Of a stretch of 32,216 nucleotides of DNA, positions 4,347-18,611 are shown piece after piece. Numbering within the stretch: position 1 is the stretch's first letter; every line of letters starts with the position of its first letter. A model generated the notes under the pieces. It saw only the letters and a list, made by a program, of their open reading frames with translations. It did not search any database and was not told the DNA's origin. This stretch comes from a virus. The position numbers and the translations under genes are program-made. Where the stretch lies: positions 1-32,216 of IMG/VR virus record IMGVR_UViG_3300039159_000147, one strand, 5' to 3'.

Positions 4347-4805
4347 ATGAAAACAACATCATGGAAAAAATCATTACAAAAATCAGCAAATTACTTTTTG
4401 GCGATAATTACGGCGCTTCTATTTTTAGGTTGTAGTGCAAGAAAAACAGAAAATACAAAAGTAAAAAAACTTGAAAAATTAGAATCCGCTAAATTAGATT
4501 TTAGCGGCTCAATTTCGTCTAACACTCAAATGGATAAAAGTATTATTTTCGTTCGGGAAATCTACGAGAAAGGCGAAATTAAAGAAAAGCAAACAACTAC
4601 TCAAAATAATAAATTAGATCAAAAAATAAAGATTGAGTACCGATATATTAAGCAAAAGCAAACTATTTATAAAACAATAACTTTAAAAAATAAAAAAACC
4701 CAAAAAGAAGCTGTTTCTAATTGGGTTTGGTTCGTTGGATTGTTTTTAGTTTTTTTGTTTGCTATTCTAAAATGGAATAAAGAACTTTTTAGGTTTCAAA
4801 ATTAA
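4347..4805 (+). CDS. Probable unimolecular spanin (lipoprotein with C-terminal membrane segment)
   Basis: 152 residues with two membrane anchors at opposite ends. The N-terminus is a lipoprotein signal: Lys-rich residues 1-12, a hydrophobic stretch to 27, then a lipobox ending LFLGC with C29 as the acylated cysteine. A charged periplasmic domain (about 30-122) is followed by a strong C-terminal segment WVWFVGLFLVFLFAILKW (about 126-144). This is the layout of phage T1 gp11-type u-spanins, which bridge outer and inner membranes and fuse them at the last step of lysis. It lies six bases after the endolysin stop. Position and topology support the call; no sequence homology was tested. Confidence 0.7.
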   Translation: MKTTSWKKSLQKSANYFLAIITALLFLGCSARKTENTKVKKLEKLESAKLDFSGSISSNTQMDKSIIFVREIYEKGEIKEKQTTTQNNKLDQKIKIEYRYIKQKQTIYKTITLKNKKTQKEAVSNWVWFVGLFLVFLFAILKWNKELFRFQN

Positions 4806-4852
4806 TTTTCATAATTATAATACATTTATGTCTTTTAGCTAATAGTAAACCG

Positions 4853-5216: not shown

Positions 5217-5354
5217 TTAAGCGGTCATGTATAGTGCTTTTTGTCTCGCTGTTTTTAAGTAATCAACTTGATTCCAAAACTTTTCAACTAATATAAAAGC
5301 TTCATTTTCTGAATAACCCATTTTAATAATTTCGTTTTGTGTTTTAGTTTTCAT
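5217..5354 (-). CDS. Small hypothetical protein, first gene of the mini-operon
   Basis: 45 residues, starting MKTKTQNEIIKMGYSENEAF and ending KALYMTA; helical and charged. The ATG at 5354 lies about 33 bases downstream of a consensus promoter on the minus strand, and the stop is two bases before the next start. The pattern NEIIKMGYSENEAFILVEKFW resembles the start of the 5616-6002 protein (EEIIQEAYLKLGYSKSDIETYV), so the two may share a small helical module. Function unknown. Confidence 0.65.
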   Translation of the reverse strand: MKTKTQNEIIKMGYSENEAFILVEKFWNQVDYLKTARQKALYMTA

Positions 5355-5390
5355 AATAATTATTTTTAGTGTTTCGCTTTATTGCTGGTG

Positions 5391-5420
5391 TAAAGATACA
5401 ACTGATATTTATATAAACAA
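5391..5420 (-). promoter_or_regulatory. Consensus Bacteroidota promoter for the reverse mini-operon
   Basis: On the minus strand: TTG (5420-5418), a 19-base spacer, and TATCTTTA (5398-5391), close to the TTG-N19-TAnnTTTG promoter recognised by the Bacteroidota primary sigma factor. Transcription should start near 5386, about 30 bases before the ATG at 5354. Confidence 0.75.
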
Positions 5421-5470
5421 TACTTTTTTGTAATTATTTTTAAAATATTTACTAATTTGCAATAAACATC

Positions 5471-5609
5471 GCACAACAGCATATTTGCGCTAGTGGCAGG
5501 CTTGGTTTGTGTCCGAAAAGACTCGGATAGTATTAATTATTGTTTTGTGCTTTTTGGCATCGGTCTTGAATTTCCGCCACCATCGCAAGATATGCGGAAC
5601 GTTAGGAGC
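5471..5609 (-). repeat. attC-like hairpin repeat A
   Basis: Outer boxes GCACAAC (5471-5477) and GTTAGGAGC (5601-5609) flank inner arms GCATATTTGCG (5479-5489) and CGCAAGATATGC (5584-5595), which pair with one bulged base. Between them are further small stems, for example TCCGA/TCGGA near 5512-5527. The layout (outer AAC/GTT boxes, inner complementary boxes with an extrahelical base, variable centre) is that of integron attC sites, but the outer boxes do not match RYYYAAC/GTTRRRY exactly. It follows the gene at 5616 on the minus strand. Confidence 0.5.
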
Positions 5610-5615
5610 AACCGC

Positions 5616-6002
5616 CTAATATAGTGGTAATTTTATGGTTTCAATTATTTTATAATAACCAAGATTTAATTTCCAAAACTCCCTTTGTAATCTATCCTCA
5701 TTAATATTTTCTTTACAAACCCAACTTGTTAATAAAATTTTACCATCGTTTTCAAGAGCAAAACAATCACAATCAAATTGTGGCATATCATTTTCACAAT
5801 ATATTTTCACCCAACCATTATTGTTTTCAATTTTAAATAATTCTTCTGGTCTAAAACTAACTCCAGAATTATGTCCTGTTAATATTTTAGAGTTTCCAAG
5901 TACATGTCTACTCCACCCGTTCACACTTACGTATGTTTCTATATCAGATTTTGAATAACCTAATTTAAGGTACGCTTCTTGTATTATTTCTTCTTTTGTC
6001 AT
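5616..6002 (-). CDS. Hypothetical protein carried between attC-like repeats A and B
   Basis: 128 residues from ATG at 6002 (MTKEEIIQEAYLKLGYSKSD). An upstream in-frame ATG at 6047 would put the first 15 codons inside repeat B, so I prefer the later start. The N-terminal 25 residues look like a helical hairpin; the rest is mixed alpha/beta with two nearby Cys (QFDCDCFALENDGKILLTSW) and a Trp-rich C-terminal half. No family is recognised. The stop is only a few bases from repeat A, as for a gene cassette. Confidence 0.6.
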   Translation of the reverse strand: MTKEEIIQEAYLKLGYSKSDIETYVSVNGWSRHVLGNSKILTGHNSGVSFRPEELFKIENNNGWVKIYCENDMPQFDCDCFALENDGKILLTSWVCKENINEDRLQREFWKLNLGYYKIIETIKLPLY

Positions 6003-6036
6003 TTGATTATTTTTAAAAATTAGTATTGTGTGGTAT

Positions 6037-6171
6037 GCTCCTAACACTCGTTTGCACGCATTGCGGGTCTTGTGGTTTAATCATATTTTCGTTTCGCAAG
6101 AAATTTAGTAATATCCAAAAAATTAAGTTTTCGAAATTTGTCATATCGCCTATCTGCAAAACGTTATAAGC
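6037..6171 (-). repeat. attC-like hairpin repeat B
   Basis: Outer boxes GCTCCTAAC (6037-6045) and GTTATAAGC (6163-6171); inner arms CGTTTGCA (6049-6056) and TGCAAAACG (6155-6163) pair with one extra A. The outer box GCTCCTAAC is the exact inverse of the GTTAGGAGC box of repeat A, so the gene between A and B is bounded by the same nonamer in opposite orientations. Just outside (6175-6200) lies a TAACCACAATAT-type motif also seen beside repeat C. Confidence 0.5.
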
Positions 6172-6333
6172 AACAGCTTATATTGTGGTTAAAATTTTTT
6201 TTACATATTTTTTACCGCTCAAGCATTGTATGGCGTATTTATATGACGTTTTCCCTTTTACGTTTTAACGTTTATCTGTTTTTTTCATGCTTAAGGTTAA
6301 TAAAGTATTACTCTTTATAGATCTGTTTAGAAG
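6172..6333. other. AT-rich non-coding stretch
   Basis: Between repeat B and the stop of the sigma-like gene I see no convincing gene on either strand. Plus-strand open frames here are low-complexity Phe/Leu runs. The segment would be the 3' tail of the middle cassette. Confidence 0.5.
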
Positions 6334-7218
6334 TTATTGCATATTTTGGTTGGAGTACAAAACGCCATCCATAATAAAGCACTTTTTATTTTTAATGTTC
6401 TTTTCTATTGAATTATTTACTGCATTTTTTGAGTCTTGTTTTAAAGACTTCCCTTCGTTAATTTTTAAGACTAATCTAAGTTTTTCAATATCTATTTTAT
6501 TATCATTTTTAGATAAAATAAACATTATTTTTTCTTTATATGAAGCTTCAAAAGGATATTCATTGTAATAGTATTTTTTATTATCTAGTATTTCAAACAT
6601 AGAGGTTTTTTCACTATCACGACCTATAATATCTTCATAAGAAATATCATTGTTTAATATGTTTTTTTCTTTCATTTTTTTAAATAGTTTTTTTCTTGAA
6701 AAATATGTTTTACTTCTTAATTCGTCTTTTTCTAGTCCCAAATATTTGGACAATTTTTCATTACCTACGTGTTTTATTTTTAACTTTAAAATGCGTTTTT
6801 GTTCATCATTGTCAAAATCTTCTATTATATCTAAAATATCTTTTTCTGTAACTTTTTCTTTTAGAATCCCGTTTTTTTCTGTTTCAAATATCATAGCTAT
6901 AATGTCAACTGGTTTGTGGGTATAACCTAACTCAGTAAAATAGTTTTTTTCTACTTTTGCCCTATTCCACTTTTTTTTAAGATAATTATAATAAACCGAT
7001 TTCATTCTTAAATAAGATATTGCTACAAAATGATCTTTACTATTTACTATACATTTTTCACTTTCTATATACTTTTTAATAGAAAAATAATAATCGTGTA
7101 GCAAATCATCAGAAGTGTAAATGTTATCATTAAATCCTAGTTGGTTTCCTTTGTAATAAACAATTCTACTTCTTTCTTTTAATTCATTATAAAATTCTTT
7201 AAAAAGAGTATTTAGCAT
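6334..7218 (-). CDS. Sigma-70-family-like protein carried between attC-like repeats
   Basis: 294 residues from the ATG at 7218 (MLNTLFKEFYNELKERSRIV). Residues ~37-90 (TSDDLLHDYYFSIKKYIE, then SYLRMKSVYYNYLKKKW) resemble region 2 of ECF-type sigma factors; residues ~150-195 (DEQKRILKLKI, KLSKYLGLEKDEL, YFSRKKLFKKMKE) resemble the region 4 helix-turn-helix. A further ~100 Lys/Asn-rich residues follow and are not typical. It could redirect host RNA polymerase, or be a degenerate relative. An in-frame ATG 22 codons upstream (7284) would lie inside repeat C, so I reject it. Lys/Glu/Ile-rich composition is more extreme than in the phage core genes. Recognition is by pattern only. Confidence 0.5.
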   Translation of the reverse strand: MLNTLFKEFYNELKERSRIVYYKGNQLGFNDNIYTSDDLLHDYYFSIKKYIESEKCIVNSKDHFVAISYLRMKSVYYNYLKKKWNRAKVEKNYFTELGYTHKPVDIIAMIFETEKNGILKEKVTEKDILDIIEDFDNDEQKRILKLKIKHVGNEKLSKYLGLEKDELRSKTYFSRKKLFKKMKEKNILNNDISYEDIIGRDSEKTSMFEILDNKKYYYNEYPFEASYKEKIMFILSKNDNKIDIEKLRLVLKINEGKSLKQDSKNAVNNSIEKNIKNKKCFIMDGVLYSNQNMQ

Positions 7219-7227
7219 AAAAACATT

Positions 7228-7366
7228 CACTAACAACGGTTTGCACGCATTGTTGCATTGTGATTCTTTGTTAAAATCTGTCATAAGGGTTATATTTTTT
7301 ATTATTAGTAATTATTTGTGATGAAATTCAACAACGACGTGCAAACCGCAAACCGTTATAAGTAAC
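7228..7366 (-). repeat. attC-like hairpin repeat C
   Basis: The clearest of the three. GGTTTGCACGCATTGTTG (7238-7255) is complementary to 7329-7347 with one indel and one mismatch. Outer boxes are CACTAAC (7228-7234) and GTTATAAG (7355-7362); a second GCAAACC copy sits at 7348-7354. It begins at the end of the 93-residue gene and ends just before the sigma-like gene. The GTTATAAG box and adjoining TAACCACAATGTTGA motif match repeat B. Confidence 0.55.
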
Positions 7367-7367
7367 T

Positions 7368-7649
7368 TTACTCAACATTGTGGTTAAAATTAATCTGACA
7401 TTCTTTTTGGAACAAAATTATTAGTAAATTAAAGTCGCTGATCTCATTTTCTTGCTCATTACTGATGCGTCTTTTAATAAATGTATTTCCTCTTTTAAAA
7501 TACATTTTACTAACCCAAGTTAAAAAATCAACAGCAAATGTTTCAGCAATTTTTACTACTTTTCCAGTATGGTTATATTTTAGAGGGCAATCATTATAAC
7601 AATCCCAATATTGCGTGTGTGGTCTTATTTGTTCTTCTAAACTTTTCAT
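7368..7649 (-). CDS. Hypothetical protein, first cassette gene upstream of repeat C
   Basis: 93 residues, MKSLEEQIRPHTQYWDCYND at the start; an early Cys pair (DCYNDCP), a basic centre (KRGNTFIKRRISNEQE) and a hydrophobic C-terminal helix (NLLIILFQKE). No family recognised. Its last codons contain a TAACCACAATGTTGA stretch whose counterpart lies outside the coding region beside repeat B, as if the cassette end were captured in the gene. Upstream (7662-7692) a TTATAA box and a GGCAATATTGCC palindrome may be a decayed fourth repeat. Confidence 0.55.
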   Translation of the reverse strand: MKSLEEQIRPHTQYWDCYNDCPLKYNHTGKVVKIAETFAVDFLTWVSKMYFKRGNTFIKRRISNEQENEISDFNLLIILFQKECQINFNHNVE

Positions 7650-7729
7650 AATAAAAAGCTACTTATAAAAGTTGTTTGGCAATATTGCCATATTGTGATT
7701 AATTTAATAATTGTTTTGCGTATGTTTTT

Positions 7730-7790: not shown

Positions 7791-8045
7791 TTAATATTCA
7801 AAAGTTACGACTATTTTGTGTCCTAAATTTTCTGCAGCTTTTTTAGCAAATTCCAAAAGGCTATCAGTATCATATATGAAAAAATTGTGTACTTCAATAT
7901 TGTTTTCTTTGCAAACCTTTTCAAACGTTTCTAAAGATGGTGATGTAGTTCCTAATTCCCATCTTTTAAGCTGAAACTGACTAATACCTACAACTTCTTT
8001 TTTAGCCCTTAAAATAGCTGTTAATTGCTGTTGAATTTTACTCAT
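7791..8045 (-). CDS. HTH (XRE-like) regulator, candidate phage repressor
   Basis: 84 residues. Residues ~5-50 (ILRAKKEVVGISQFQLKRWELGTTSPSLETFEKVCKEN) have the layout of an XRE/Cro-type helix-turn-helix, with the common WELGTTSPSLETFEKV tail. The C-terminal half (DSLLEFAKKAAENLGHKIVVTFEY) is short, so no peptidase domain is present and induction by RecA-type cleavage is unlikely. The start overlaps the stop of the upstream gene as ATGA. Position, reverse of and just before the early operon, fits a lysogeny repressor or Cro-like switch; which one is not decided by sequence. Confidence 0.7.
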   Translation of the reverse strand: MSKIQQQLTAILRAKKEVVGISQFQLKRWELGTTSPSLETFEKVCKENNIEVHNFFIYDTDSLLEFAKKAAENLGHKIVVTFEY

Positions 8046-9759: not shown

Positions 9760-9902
9760 GTAGAAGAACAATAAACACAGTAGAAAAAAGATTGACAATT
9801 TCTGAGGAGTTAAGTAACCAATTGCCAAACGCGAAAAAAGTAGTCGCAGCTTCAAAAGATTTACCACATTTACAAAAACCTATAAAGTACTTATTTAAAT
9901 AA
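9756..9902 (+). CDS. Small basic protein ending the early operon
   Basis: 48 residues, MSRRTINTVEKRLTISEELS at the start and KPIKYLFK at the end. ATG overlaps the previous stop as ATGA. It ends 17 bases before the RNA locus. No family recognised. Confidence 0.55.
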   Translation: MSRRTINTVEKRLTISEELSNQLPNAKKVVAASKDLPHLQKPIKYLFK

Positions 9903-9906
9903 ATAG

Positions 9907-9914
9907 TATATTTA
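9907..9914 (+). promoter_or_regulatory. -7-like box upstream of the tmRNA locus
   Basis: TATATTTA, one base off TAnnTTTG. No TTG at the proper distance, so the RNA may also be transcribed from the early operon. Confidence 0.4.
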
Positions 9915-9918
9915 CAAA

Positions 9919-10204
9919 ATAATTAATTCATTGACGTATTATAATTTTTTGTAAGATCGGAGTTCGAATCTCCGCAGCTCCACAAATCGAATCAGTGTAA
10001 AGTTTTGATGGTTTGGCCAGCCGATATACAAATGGTTTTTTGGGGCTGACTGGTTTTGATTGCAATGCAATAGTAATAAATAGAATTAATTTACCATAAC
10101 CGACAAAGTTATAAATCTTTTCAATGCTCCATTAAGAATGGTGGCATAGTTACGTAAAAAGAACGAAATCTTTAAATCTAACCACTGTAACAAGTGGTTT
10201 TTTT
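9919..10204 (+). ncRNA. ssrA: Candidate circularly permuted (two-piece) tmRNA
   Basis: The hallmarks of tmRNA are present in swapped order. First comes a T arm, CGGAG-TTCGAAT-CTCCG (9958-9974), the 3' acceptor strand CAGCTCC (9975-9981) and discriminator A9982. About 60 bases later comes the 5' hallmark GGGGCTGACTGGTTTTGAT (10042-10060). The two acceptor strands pair over all 7 bp, with G-U at the third pair (G10044-T9979), the alanine identity element of tmRNA. TTGCAA (10061-10066) can pair with TTGTAA (9950-9955), where helix P2 belongs. The locus ends in a terminator at 10180-10204. Bases 9983-10041 would be an excised spacer; CCA is not encoded. The tag frame is uncertain: 10126-10149 would encode APLRMVA then TAG, about 85 bases from the mature 5' end. 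The role would be rescue of stalled ribosomes. Known permuted tmRNAs are from alpha- and beta-proteobacteria and cyanobacteria. Confidence 0.75.
10180..10204 (+). terminator. Rho-independent terminator of the tmRNA locus
   Basis: AACCACT (10180-10186) and AGTGGTT (10193-10199) form a perfect 7-bp stem with a 6-base loop, followed by a T run through 10204. Confidence 0.85.
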
Positions 10205-10229
10205 ATTTCTTAAATTATTGTTAATATAT

Positions 10230-10261
10230 TTGTTTACTATTGCAAAACTATTGTATATTTG
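10230..10261 (+). promoter_or_regulatory. Promoter of the recombination/replication operon
   Basis: TTG (10230-10232), 21-base spacer, TATATTTG (10254-10261). The ATG at 10288 follows 26 bases later. A second TATATTTG overlaps the -33 region (10225-10232), so start sites may be tandem. Confidence 0.75.
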
Positions 10262-16720: not shown

Positions 16721-17084
16721 TAATAACACCTATCTTGGCAAAATCAAAGACATATCGCAATACGGAATTACATGTAAAAAACAAAGAGCAAAATATACGT
16801 TTTAAAGGACTTTTTAAATTAATATGACCTTATTATGCTAAAAAGCTTTCTATTGCCTTAAATATGCCTATATTAAAGCCGATAATCGAAATACACACTA
16901 TTTAAGGTTTAGCTTGGATGACTATAACGCAAAAAATTCATAGATTTCAGTCAAAAGGGTATTGCGTAGAGGAAATAAATTTAACTTTAAATATAAAATA
17001 AAAGATGAAAAAATTATACGAAAAAACAAGCTGTTTATTATTTGGAGGAATAAATTTCAATCCTAAATGATAAATTATTATAAT
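16721..17084 (+). other. Intergenic stretch with several tiny open frames
   Basis: No large gene. Possible mini-genes: TTG 16735 to TGA 16827 (30 codons, AKSKTYRNTELHVKNKEQ), ATG 16918 to TAA 17001 (listed separately) and ATG 17005 to TGA 17070 (21 codons). The stretch between about 16828 and 16917 has multiple stops in all forward frames. Confidence 0.4.
16918..17001 (+). CDS. Tiny HTH-like protein
   Basis: 27 codons, MTITQKIHRFQSKGYCVEEI then NLTLNIK. The sequence resembles the first two helices of a helix-turn-helix that stops early, so it may be a fragment of a larger regulator or a real mini-protein. Support is composition only. Confidence 0.35.
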   Translation: MTITQKIHRFQSKGYCVEEINLTLNIK

Positions 17085-17115
17085 TTGCTTTGTAACTTAT
17101 ATTTTAGTACTTTTG
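17085..17115 (+). promoter_or_regulatory. Promoter of the methylase/packaging operon
   Basis: TTG (17085-17087), 20-base spacer, TACTTTTG (17108-17115). It ends five bases before the ATG at 17121, so the mRNA would be nearly leaderless and the upstream in-frame ATG at 17067 is not used from this promoter. Confidence 0.75.
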
Positions 17116-17120
17116 AATTT

Positions 17121-18611
17121 ATGGAATTAATCAAAATATCAGAAATAAAACCGAACCCAAATAATCCGAGAACCATAAAAGATGACAAATTTGCAAAGTT
17201 GGTAAAGTCGATTAAAGACTTTCCTGAAATGCTTAATTTAAGACCGATTGTAGTCAACGACTATATGATTGTATTAGGTGGAAATATGCGATTAAAAGCA
17301 TGTAAAGAGGCGGGATTAAAAGAAGTGCCGATTATCAAAGCGTCAAACTTAACCGAGCAACAACAAAAGGAATTTATCATAAAAGATAACGTAGGTTTTG
17401 GCGAATGGGATTGGGATAGTTTAGCAAACGAATGGGAAGCTTACGAGTTAACAGAGTGGGGTTTGGATGTTCCAGAATTTAATACGGAAGTTTTAGAAGC
17501 AGAAGAAGATGACTTTGATACAACGCCGCCTGAAATACCTATAACCGTTTTAGGCGACCTTTATGAAATTGGAGAGCATCGGTTATTATGTGGAGACAGC
17601 ACCTATCCAGATACCGTTGCAAAGTTAATGAATGGGCAGAAAGCAGACTTAGGGCATAACGACCCACCGTATGGAATGAAAAAGGAAAATGAGGGAGTTT
17701 TAAACGATAACTTAAACTATGCTGATTTACTAGATTTTAATAAACAATGTATTCCTTTACAGTTTTCACACCTAAAAGAAAACGGAAGTTTTTATTGTTG
17801 GGGGATTGATGAGCCGTTAATGGATATTTATTCAGAAATATTAAAACCATTTATACAAGAACAAAAAGTAACCTTTAGGAATTTAATAACGTGGAATAAA
17901 GGACACGGTCAAGGTCAAAATTCAGAGAATACAAGAAGCTATGCAGTAGCAGACGAAAAGTGCTTGTTTTTTATGTGTGGGGTTCAGGGGTTTAATAATA
18001 ATGCAGATAATTATTTTGAAGGGTGGGAACCAATAAGAGATTATTTATTAGAGCAAAGATTAAAATGTGGTTGGGATATTCCAACAATGAAAAAAATAGC
18101 AGGGCATTCAGATTTGTATAGGGATCATTGGACTTGTAAGAGCCAATGGAATATGCCAACAAAAGAAGTTTATATTTGTTTCCAAAATTGGGCTAAAGAA
18201 AACAAACCCGATGCCTTTAAAAAAGAATACGAAGAGTTAAAAAAAGAATACTATTCTACAAGGGCATATTTTAATAATACACACGATAATTTTAACAATG
18301 TTTGGAATATTGAAAGAACAGGAAACAAGGAAAGAGAAACAACAGGAAACCACGCAACACCAAAACCAATACAGCTATGTGAAAGGGTAATTAAATCAAG
18401 TTGTCCAGATAATGGTTTAGTTTTAGATGTATTCTTAGGTTCAGGCTCAACAATGGTAGCAGCACACCAATTAAAAAGAAAATGTTACGGCATGGAATTA
18501 GACCCAAAGTACTGCGATGTAATTGTAAACAGAATGCGAAAACTAGACCCTACATTGATAATTAAGCGAAACGGAGTAACAATTGAAAAACAATTGAAAA
18601 ATGGCAAATAA
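17121..18611 (+). CDS. ParB/Sulfiredoxin-like domain fused to DNA adenine methyltransferase
   Basis: 496 residues from ATG 17121. Residues 1-95 are a ParB-N/Srx-type domain (ISEIKPNPNNPRTIKDDKF, VLGGNMRLKACKEAG). The methylase follows: motif IV DPPY at 181-184 and, much later, the AdoMet-binding motif I DVFLGSGST from about 436, with MELDPKYCDVIVNRM after it. The order IV-target domain-I is that of beta-class N6-adenine (or N4-cytosine) methylases. It would transfer methyl from AdoMet to phage DNA, probably for protection from host restriction or to mark DNA for packaging. It overlaps the small terminase gene by 11 bases. Upstream start 17067 is rejected because it precedes the promoter. Confidence 0.9.
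   Translation: MELIKISEIKPNPNNPRTIKDDKFAKLVKSIKDFPEMLNLRPIVVNDYMIVLGGNMRLKACKEAGLKEVPIIKASNLTEQQQKEFIIKDNVGFGEWDWDSLANEWEAYELTEWGLDVPEFNTEVLEAEEDDFDTTPPEIPITVLGDLYEIGEHRLLCGDSTYPDTVAKLMNGQKADLGHNDPPYGMKKENEGVLNDNLNYADLLDFNKQCIPLQFSHLKENGSFYCWGIDEPLMDIYSEILKPFIQEQKVTFRNLITWNKGHGQGQNSENTRSYAVADEKCLFFMCGVQGFNNNADNYFEGWEPIRDYLLEQRLKCGWDIPTMKKIAGHSDLYRDHWTCKSQWNMPTKEVYICFQNWAKENKPDAFKKEYEELKKEYYSTRAYFNNTHDNFNNVWNIERTGNKERETTGNHATPKPIQLCERVIKSSCPDNGLVLDVFLGSGSTMVAAHQLKRKCYGMELDPKYCDVIVNRMRKLDPTLIIKRNGVTIEKQLKNGK

Follow-up and report, generated by a model that had tools for sequence, protein, structure and literature searches.

Organization of the cassette region

The window analysed here is an IMG/VR virus record of 32,216 bases (IMGVR_UViG_3300039159_000147) that carries portal, terminase and other phage genes. 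On its minus strand, with an HTH regulator (7791..8045, minus strand) on one side and the lysis region on the other, three open reading frames (orf93, orf316 and orf143) were found together with three repeated elements. Element C (7232..7357, minus strand; AAC at 7357, GTT at 7234, 126 nt) lies upstream of orf316, and is followed by element B (6043..6165, minus strand; AAC at 6165, GTT at 6045, 123 nt) and element A (5475..5603, minus strand; AAC at 5603, GTT at 5477, 129 nt). The preliminary description had taken these repeats for integron-type attC sites of 135-139 bases. Their existence was confirmed by sequence, coordinates and homology to a wider family, while their length came to 123-129 nt from AAC to GTT, the larger figure having counted the boxes in; this size fits the 117-129 nt mode of the family. 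Inner complementary arms had been ascribed to every element. However, this held well only for C, which folded with a z of -3.3 (0 of 200 shuffles as good); the arms of A (GCATATCTTGCGATGGTGGCGG / CTGCCACTAGCGCAAATATGC) folded weakly (z -1.2) and B gave no fold (z +0.9). The folds of A and B were within the range of shuffled sequences, leaving one well-folding site of three. The motif GTTATAAG is common to B and C, with TAACCACAAT ahead of it in both, as had been noticed at first reading.

Each element has relatives in other phages. C was 75% identical over 121 nt to an element at L120:4622-4749 and 90% identical to one in L022, and A was 78% identical over 105 nt to L110:4625-4750. In B the 5' arm has diverged, and the 3' half matches intact sites from elsewhere at 87-92% identity, for example 89% for L042:4519-4643 and 87.5% for Flavobacterium psychrophilum phage 2A; from its sequence B looks decayed. 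The homologs of A, B and C in L110, L042 and L120 all stand in arrays that bear a recombinase, indicating that the window array is a CALIN-like remnant of a phage integron system. Like a CALIN, a cluster of attC sites lacking an integron-integrase (PMC9024848) and called from at least two attC sites with no integrase nearby, the window has three sites by homology and no integrase. It differs from a CALIN in that it lies within a phage, its sites belong to a phage family and at least one of them is decayed. The absence of an integrase, reported earlier, was upheld for the whole 32-kb record, in which integron integrase and Phage_integrase models detected no tyrosine recombinase; the record may be a fragment. 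Rfam searches of the window at gathering and permissive thresholds returned no relevant match.

The ends of the cassettes were then compared. orf143 (5616..6047, minus strand; weak match to phrog_27445, function unknown) lies in a cassette body at 5601..6045 (minus strand) bounded by GTTAGGAGC (6045-6037) and GCTCCTAAC (5609-5601). The boxes of A and B had been described as exact inverses, which is correct, and the inversion extends to 10 nt. A 7-nt inverse match at these edges would arise by chance with a probability of about 6e-5, a figure that applies since the edges are fixed independently by element homology; when all GTT/AAC pairs of the region were scanned with positions unanchored, end matches were not above chance. 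For orf93 (7368..7649, minus strand) the cassette end AAAGTTACTTATAAC is inverse at 13 of 15 positions to the leader TTTATAAGTAGCTTT. The leader site ahead of this first cassette, AAC^TTTTATAAGTAGC (7651..7673, minus strand), is shared with the related phage contig L007 and resembles the attI-like site described below with two mismatches; the window has five matches this good, the one at 7673 among them, and the resemblance may be due to chance. attI proper was not present as such in the window record. The rule failed for orf316 (6334..7284, minus strand), whose cassette ends GTTAGTGAA and GCTTATAAC do not match and in whose tail the orf93 tail motif ATTTTAACCACAAT occurs again. From these two features we read the orf316 cassette as a fusion (fused or decayed). 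It had been noted that two genes would start inside repeats if their longest frames were used: the start codon of orf316 can indeed fall in C, where an in-frame ATG opens MTDFNKESQCNNACKPLL..., and orf143 has its own ATG at about 6002. The suggestion of a sigma-like cassette was not substantiated, as orf316, of unknown function, had no significant match in Pfam or PHROG and its AlphaFold model was poor (pLDDT 38) and unusable.

Comparison with L007 delimited the variable block. Both flanks are common to the two phages (87-89% identity; 90% in the HTH regulator, the conserved 5' flank), different genes lie between them, and the differences are confined to this block. Its 3' limit is at 4845..4846 (minus strand), where L007 homology picks up at (A)AC^TATTRGCTAARAGAC. 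Positions 4686-4846 of the window correspond to 3888-4048 of L007 (88%), and the L007 junction, ..TTATAAC^TATTGGC, is the point where homology to the window resumes.

Other features of the window were recorded separately. A promoter-like leader of about 100 nt (5342-5451) precedes a 45-aa gene and recurs with 71-89% identity before genes of several further phages, among them phage 11b and, at another place, L007. At 17067-18611 a 514-aa protein joins a ParB-like N-terminus to a DNA methyltransferase. ARAGORN called a tmRNA at 9893-10240 (tag DKVINLFNAPLRMVA), for which Rfam gave nothing at its cut-off; the call is probably false.

A family of attC-like elements in flavobacterial phages

A strict two-armed DNA pattern had no match in viral contigs. 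A one-armed pattern, made from the short stretch of 3' arm common to B, C and the F. psychrophilum phages, succeeded: it matched 23 viral contigs, and on inspection the same element was clear in about 18. Among 84,980 bacterial and archaeal genomes the same pattern gave four matches, of which one was plausible; it lies in a Flavobacterium MAG, on a contig of 22 kb that may be phage DNA. A chromosomal origin of the phage elements was considered and rejected on this single plausible contig. The family comprises more than 200 elements, and the integron type was found in more than 100 flavobacterial phage contigs. Walking outward from the recombinase yielded 205 cassettes, and a single array had as many as 10 of them within 6 kb. 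Most elements measured 117-127 nt, and others formed a second class of 65-87 nt.

As in known attC sites, an imperfect hairpin is conserved in the family with little conservation of sequence. The stem score of the walked elements was 14.1 vs 7.1 +- 1.9, and arms paired with their own partners scored 14.3 vs 6.4 +- 1.7 with swapped ones. When 52 elements were aligned, 16 of the 17 helix pairs showed compensatory changes. One pair is a nearly invariant G-T (42/52 elements), a wobble which hints that the gene strand is the one that folds. That the elements are chance inverted repeats between phage genes is hardly credible in view of these data: the folds of A and B within the shuffled range and the unanchored scan of the window would have allowed it, but covariation across the family and matching cassette ends, in a set of more than 200 elements, refuted it.

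Recombinase, attI-like site and the rule of cassette ends

Several element-bearing contigs encode a tyrosine recombinase of 265-280 aa directly behind the array, and two recombinase searches brought the collection to about 140 loci in viral contigs. Neighbours of the recombinase include portal, head, terminase, primase and DnaB genes, so these contigs are phages. About 55 nt ahead of the recombinase start, an attI-like AAC^TAYTATATGTA was present in 102 of 139 loci, and the sequence ahead of its AAC differs between loci. As at attI of integrons, which lies beside the integrase where cassettes join, an identical site was found to carry different cassettes. The end rule was examined by taking the 7 nt before this AAC, reverse-complementing them and seeking them upstream as GTT+7. 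The ends of the last cassette were inverse in 66 of 77 non-redundant loci, as the GTTRRRY and RYYYAAC ends of an integron cassette are, against 11.6 +- 2.9 expected and a maximum of 21 in 200 trials in which words were swapped between loci. The reading of the repeats as attC sites and of the genes between them as cassettes gained support from a phage family with fold, end rule, attI-like site and recombinase. Such cargo had been called unusual for a phage; in fact it is widespread among flavobacterial phages, and the window is one instance.

Movement of cassettes

Closely related phages showed that the cassettes move. In L066, L067, L068 and L069, attI and recombinase are 98.7-100% identical, and four unrelated first cassettes begin at AAC^. 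L069 and L070 share cassettes that are 97.7-100% identical, nearly all 100%, in different order; one of them adjoins attI in L070 and has an internal position in L069. Of the F. psychrophilum phages in culture, FPSV-F7 lacks two whole cassettes that 2A carries, cut at TAACG^, and one of the two, of 904 bp, stands elsewhere in a third phage (L011), also at TAACG^. The presence or absence of single cassettes in relatives, proposed at the outset as a check, was therefore seen, together with shuffling and sharp breakpoints. In these comparisons nearly every breakpoint mapped to ...TAAC^G, where the element has its 5' edge, and not to the GTT box ahead of the gene, where the cut had been expected. 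On the right, shared cassettes ended at their own AAC (0 to +4 in 12 cases, -24 in one, further in for two) and never after a downstream element. A unit made of an ORF and its downstream attC was accordingly rejected, right-hand homology ending at AAC and never at +120. The left ends fell at the AAC of the upstream element or, in about half, at its GTT/L' arm, indicating that elements are also exchanged or converted. These genome comparisons show cassettes inserted, lost and reordered at ...YYYAAC^G..., from which we infer recombination in the phage arrays.

The elements could alternatively be conserved spacers, serving as translation starts or hairpins, between genes exchanged by homologous or short-homology recombination with no site-specific recombinase. 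One junction between 2A and FPSV-F7 falls inside an element, which means that ordinary recombination occurs too; several left ends likewise lie inside elements (at 54-118), site B looks chimeric, and the F. psychrophilum phages lack the cassette recombinase. Against this, most junctions are at TAAC^G between flanks of 99-100% identity, inverse ends specific to each cassette are not expected of homologous exchange, and a recombinase with a conserved attI-like site adjoins the array. We therefore consider spacers exchanged in this way an improbable explanation. It is very probable that the window holds a short cassette array of a phage integron, with no integrase gene in the record, whose unit is an attC plus its downstream ORF cut at ...YYYAAC^G....

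The F. psychrophilum phages (L001, L002; 1H, 23T, 6H, FPSV-D15/D17/D35) differ largely by cassettes. In 2A and FPSV-F7 the only tyrosine recombinase found was of another type, about 400 aa long (186 aa as cut in 2A).

Polarity and translation starts

Almost all cassette ORFs (201/202) point at the recombinase. In integrons, Pc at the integrase end drives the cassettes away from it, which the ORF direction of the phage arrays does not follow. A gene comes after its own attC, and about one cassette in three has the start codon within that attC. A unit of attC plus downstream ORF accounts for reading frame and element staying matched. Sixty-four ORFs start within the upstream element, and for 44 of them no ATG beyond GTT would preserve 80% of the length. 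The cytosine methyltransferase of L099 (326 aa) has no ATG, GTG or TTG from GTT up to catalytic motif I, and its translation must therefore start within the attC.

Seen from the opposite strand, the arrangement has integron geometry (int divergent, attI, G^TTRRRY-cassette-RYYYAAC-attC), except that its ORFs are inverted. The recombinase may fold and recombine one attC strand as IntI does and insert circular cassettes at attI; transcription would come from the phage operon, and the attC would help to supply translation starts. What moved the cassettes of the window was probably a recombinase that acted in trans or has been lost since, or one that may lie beyond the contig ends.

An integrase without the IntI-specific domain and its chromosomal sister

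The closest solved relatives of the phage recombinase are XerC-like/XerA proteins and VchIntI4. Relative to VchIntI4 (2a3v) it has 20 residues where IntI has 63, about 43 fewer at the IntI-specific insertion. This domain, a defining mark of integron integrases (PMC9024848, PMC4792948), was absent from all 45 non-redundant phage recombinases, and TIGR02249 scores were 146-178, under the cut-off of 265. An integrase of the IntI clade with the extra domain, as integrons have, is thus not what these phages encode. A Bacteroidota IntI had been proposed at the outset for a test of recombination; the system is of integron type, but its recombinase is not a classical IntI. In the tree, the phage proteins form one clade with Leef1_38 and Ingeline1_28 (support 97/80), Flavobacterium chromosomal proteins are sister to it, and IntI and XerD fall outside; Leef1_38, Ingeline1_28 and the outgroups are on long branches and their exact positions are unsure. 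Xer recombinases act on dif in chromosome dimer resolution. The phage proteins share with XerA, XerC and XerD the fold family, the domain layout and the lack of the IntI insert; they differ in standing beside cassette arrays and outside the XerD branch. The recombinases at L017:1955-2788 and L020:4200-5036 are mosaic, with nearly identical catalytic halves and diverged N-terminal halves.

Of 299 Flavobacterium genomes, 175 have a recombinase homolog at 1e-40, with full-length identity no higher than 48%. In 18 of 20 chromosomal loci inspected (L215-L234) an attI-like ACATATANACAA^GTT lies just downstream of the recombinase gene, and in the other two the contigs end too soon. G231 carries 15 consecutive matching-end cassettes with attC sites of the same build as the phage sites, and all its ORFs of at least 77 aa are directed away from the recombinase. 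The chromosomal arrays (L241-L243, from G081, G118 and G231), with a 347-aa recombinase of NF040815 type, resemble the phage arrays in attC architecture, end rule, lack of the IntI insert and sister-clade position. They are unlike them in that the recombinase gene runs toward attI, the ORFs run away from it and the protein has an N-terminal extension of about 70 aa.

AttC-type sites, GTTRRRY/RYYYAAC ends and this sister integron on Flavobacterium chromosomes would also suit classical cassettes that a phage captured from a host chromosome and that a host IntI, complete with the IntI-specific domain, recombines. However, about 20 phage contigs contained the element motif, compared with a single plausible bacterial contig from 84,980 genomes, the phage recombinases are a clade of their own without the IntI domain, and cassette polarity is opposite to that of host arrays. 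Capture from the host is accordingly a very remote explanation in our judgement. In common with class 1 integrons and the Vibrio superintegron, the phage system has a tyrosine recombinase, one attI-like site, cassette arrays, a GTTRRRY start inverse to the RYYYAAC end, a hairpin attC with variable loop, an AAC/G^TT insertion junction and cassette shuffling. It is distinct from them in its 265-279 aa recombinase without the IntI-specific domain, its attI motif, its inverted ORFs often starting in attC and its place within phage gene clusters. The annotated integron integrase of Shewanella phage vB_SspM_M16-3 (MZ568829) is likewise a phage-borne integron-type integrase; it is, however, a genuine IntI of 319 aa that has the insert and for which a LexA site is annotated, and its identity to the phage recombinase is only 28%. 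Published surveys reported almost no integrons in Bacteroidota (PMC9024848), and in the open-access literature searched we found no account of phage or Flavobacterium integrons.

Cargo and significance

Pfam names among 105 cassette proteins comprised six C5 and six N4/N6 methyltransferases, two Dam, two Mom, two PAPS reductases (four by PHROG), a TET-associated glycosyltransferase and acetyltransferases; most of the others are of unknown function. The identifiable cargo, mostly DNA methyltransferases, Mom and PAPS reductases by family name, suggests counter-defence, and the likely benefit would be a stock of anti-restriction and DNA-modification genes that can be exchanged quickly. Flavobacterium phage hemulen6-1 (L240, MN812208) has three adjacent DNA methyltransferase genes, one of which overlaps a family element.

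Isolated phages carry the system as well. Polaribacter phage Leef_1 has three matching-end cassettes ahead of its 'integrase' (L237, MT732473 25636-31397), and Cellulophaga phage Ingeline_1 (L238, MT732435 19203-24979) probably has cassettes and recombinase. The Leef_1 paper took the integrase as a sign of temperate life, without mention of integrons (PMC8776804). In both phages the annotated 'integrase', near structural genes, is probably the cassette recombinase and not (only) a prophage integrase.

Taken together, we think it likely that phages of Flavobacteriia run an integron class of their own, with a domain-less integrase and inverted cassettes whose attC supplies start codon and N-terminal tail, used as a fast exchangeable arsenal for anti-restriction and DNA hypermodification and sister to an overlooked chromosomal class in Flavobacterium. 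Integrons are known from bacteria, which capture genes with them; in these phages a complete and apparently active one is present, whose recombinase would escape the usual IntI filters. Since this recombinase lacks the domain associated with single-strand attC recombination, the system makes the origin of integron integrases testable. With F. psychrophilum 2A and FPSV-F7 and Polaribacter phage Leef_1 available as isolates, it can be worked on in the laboratory. The cargo suggests that phages bank counter-defences and swap them cassette by cassette.
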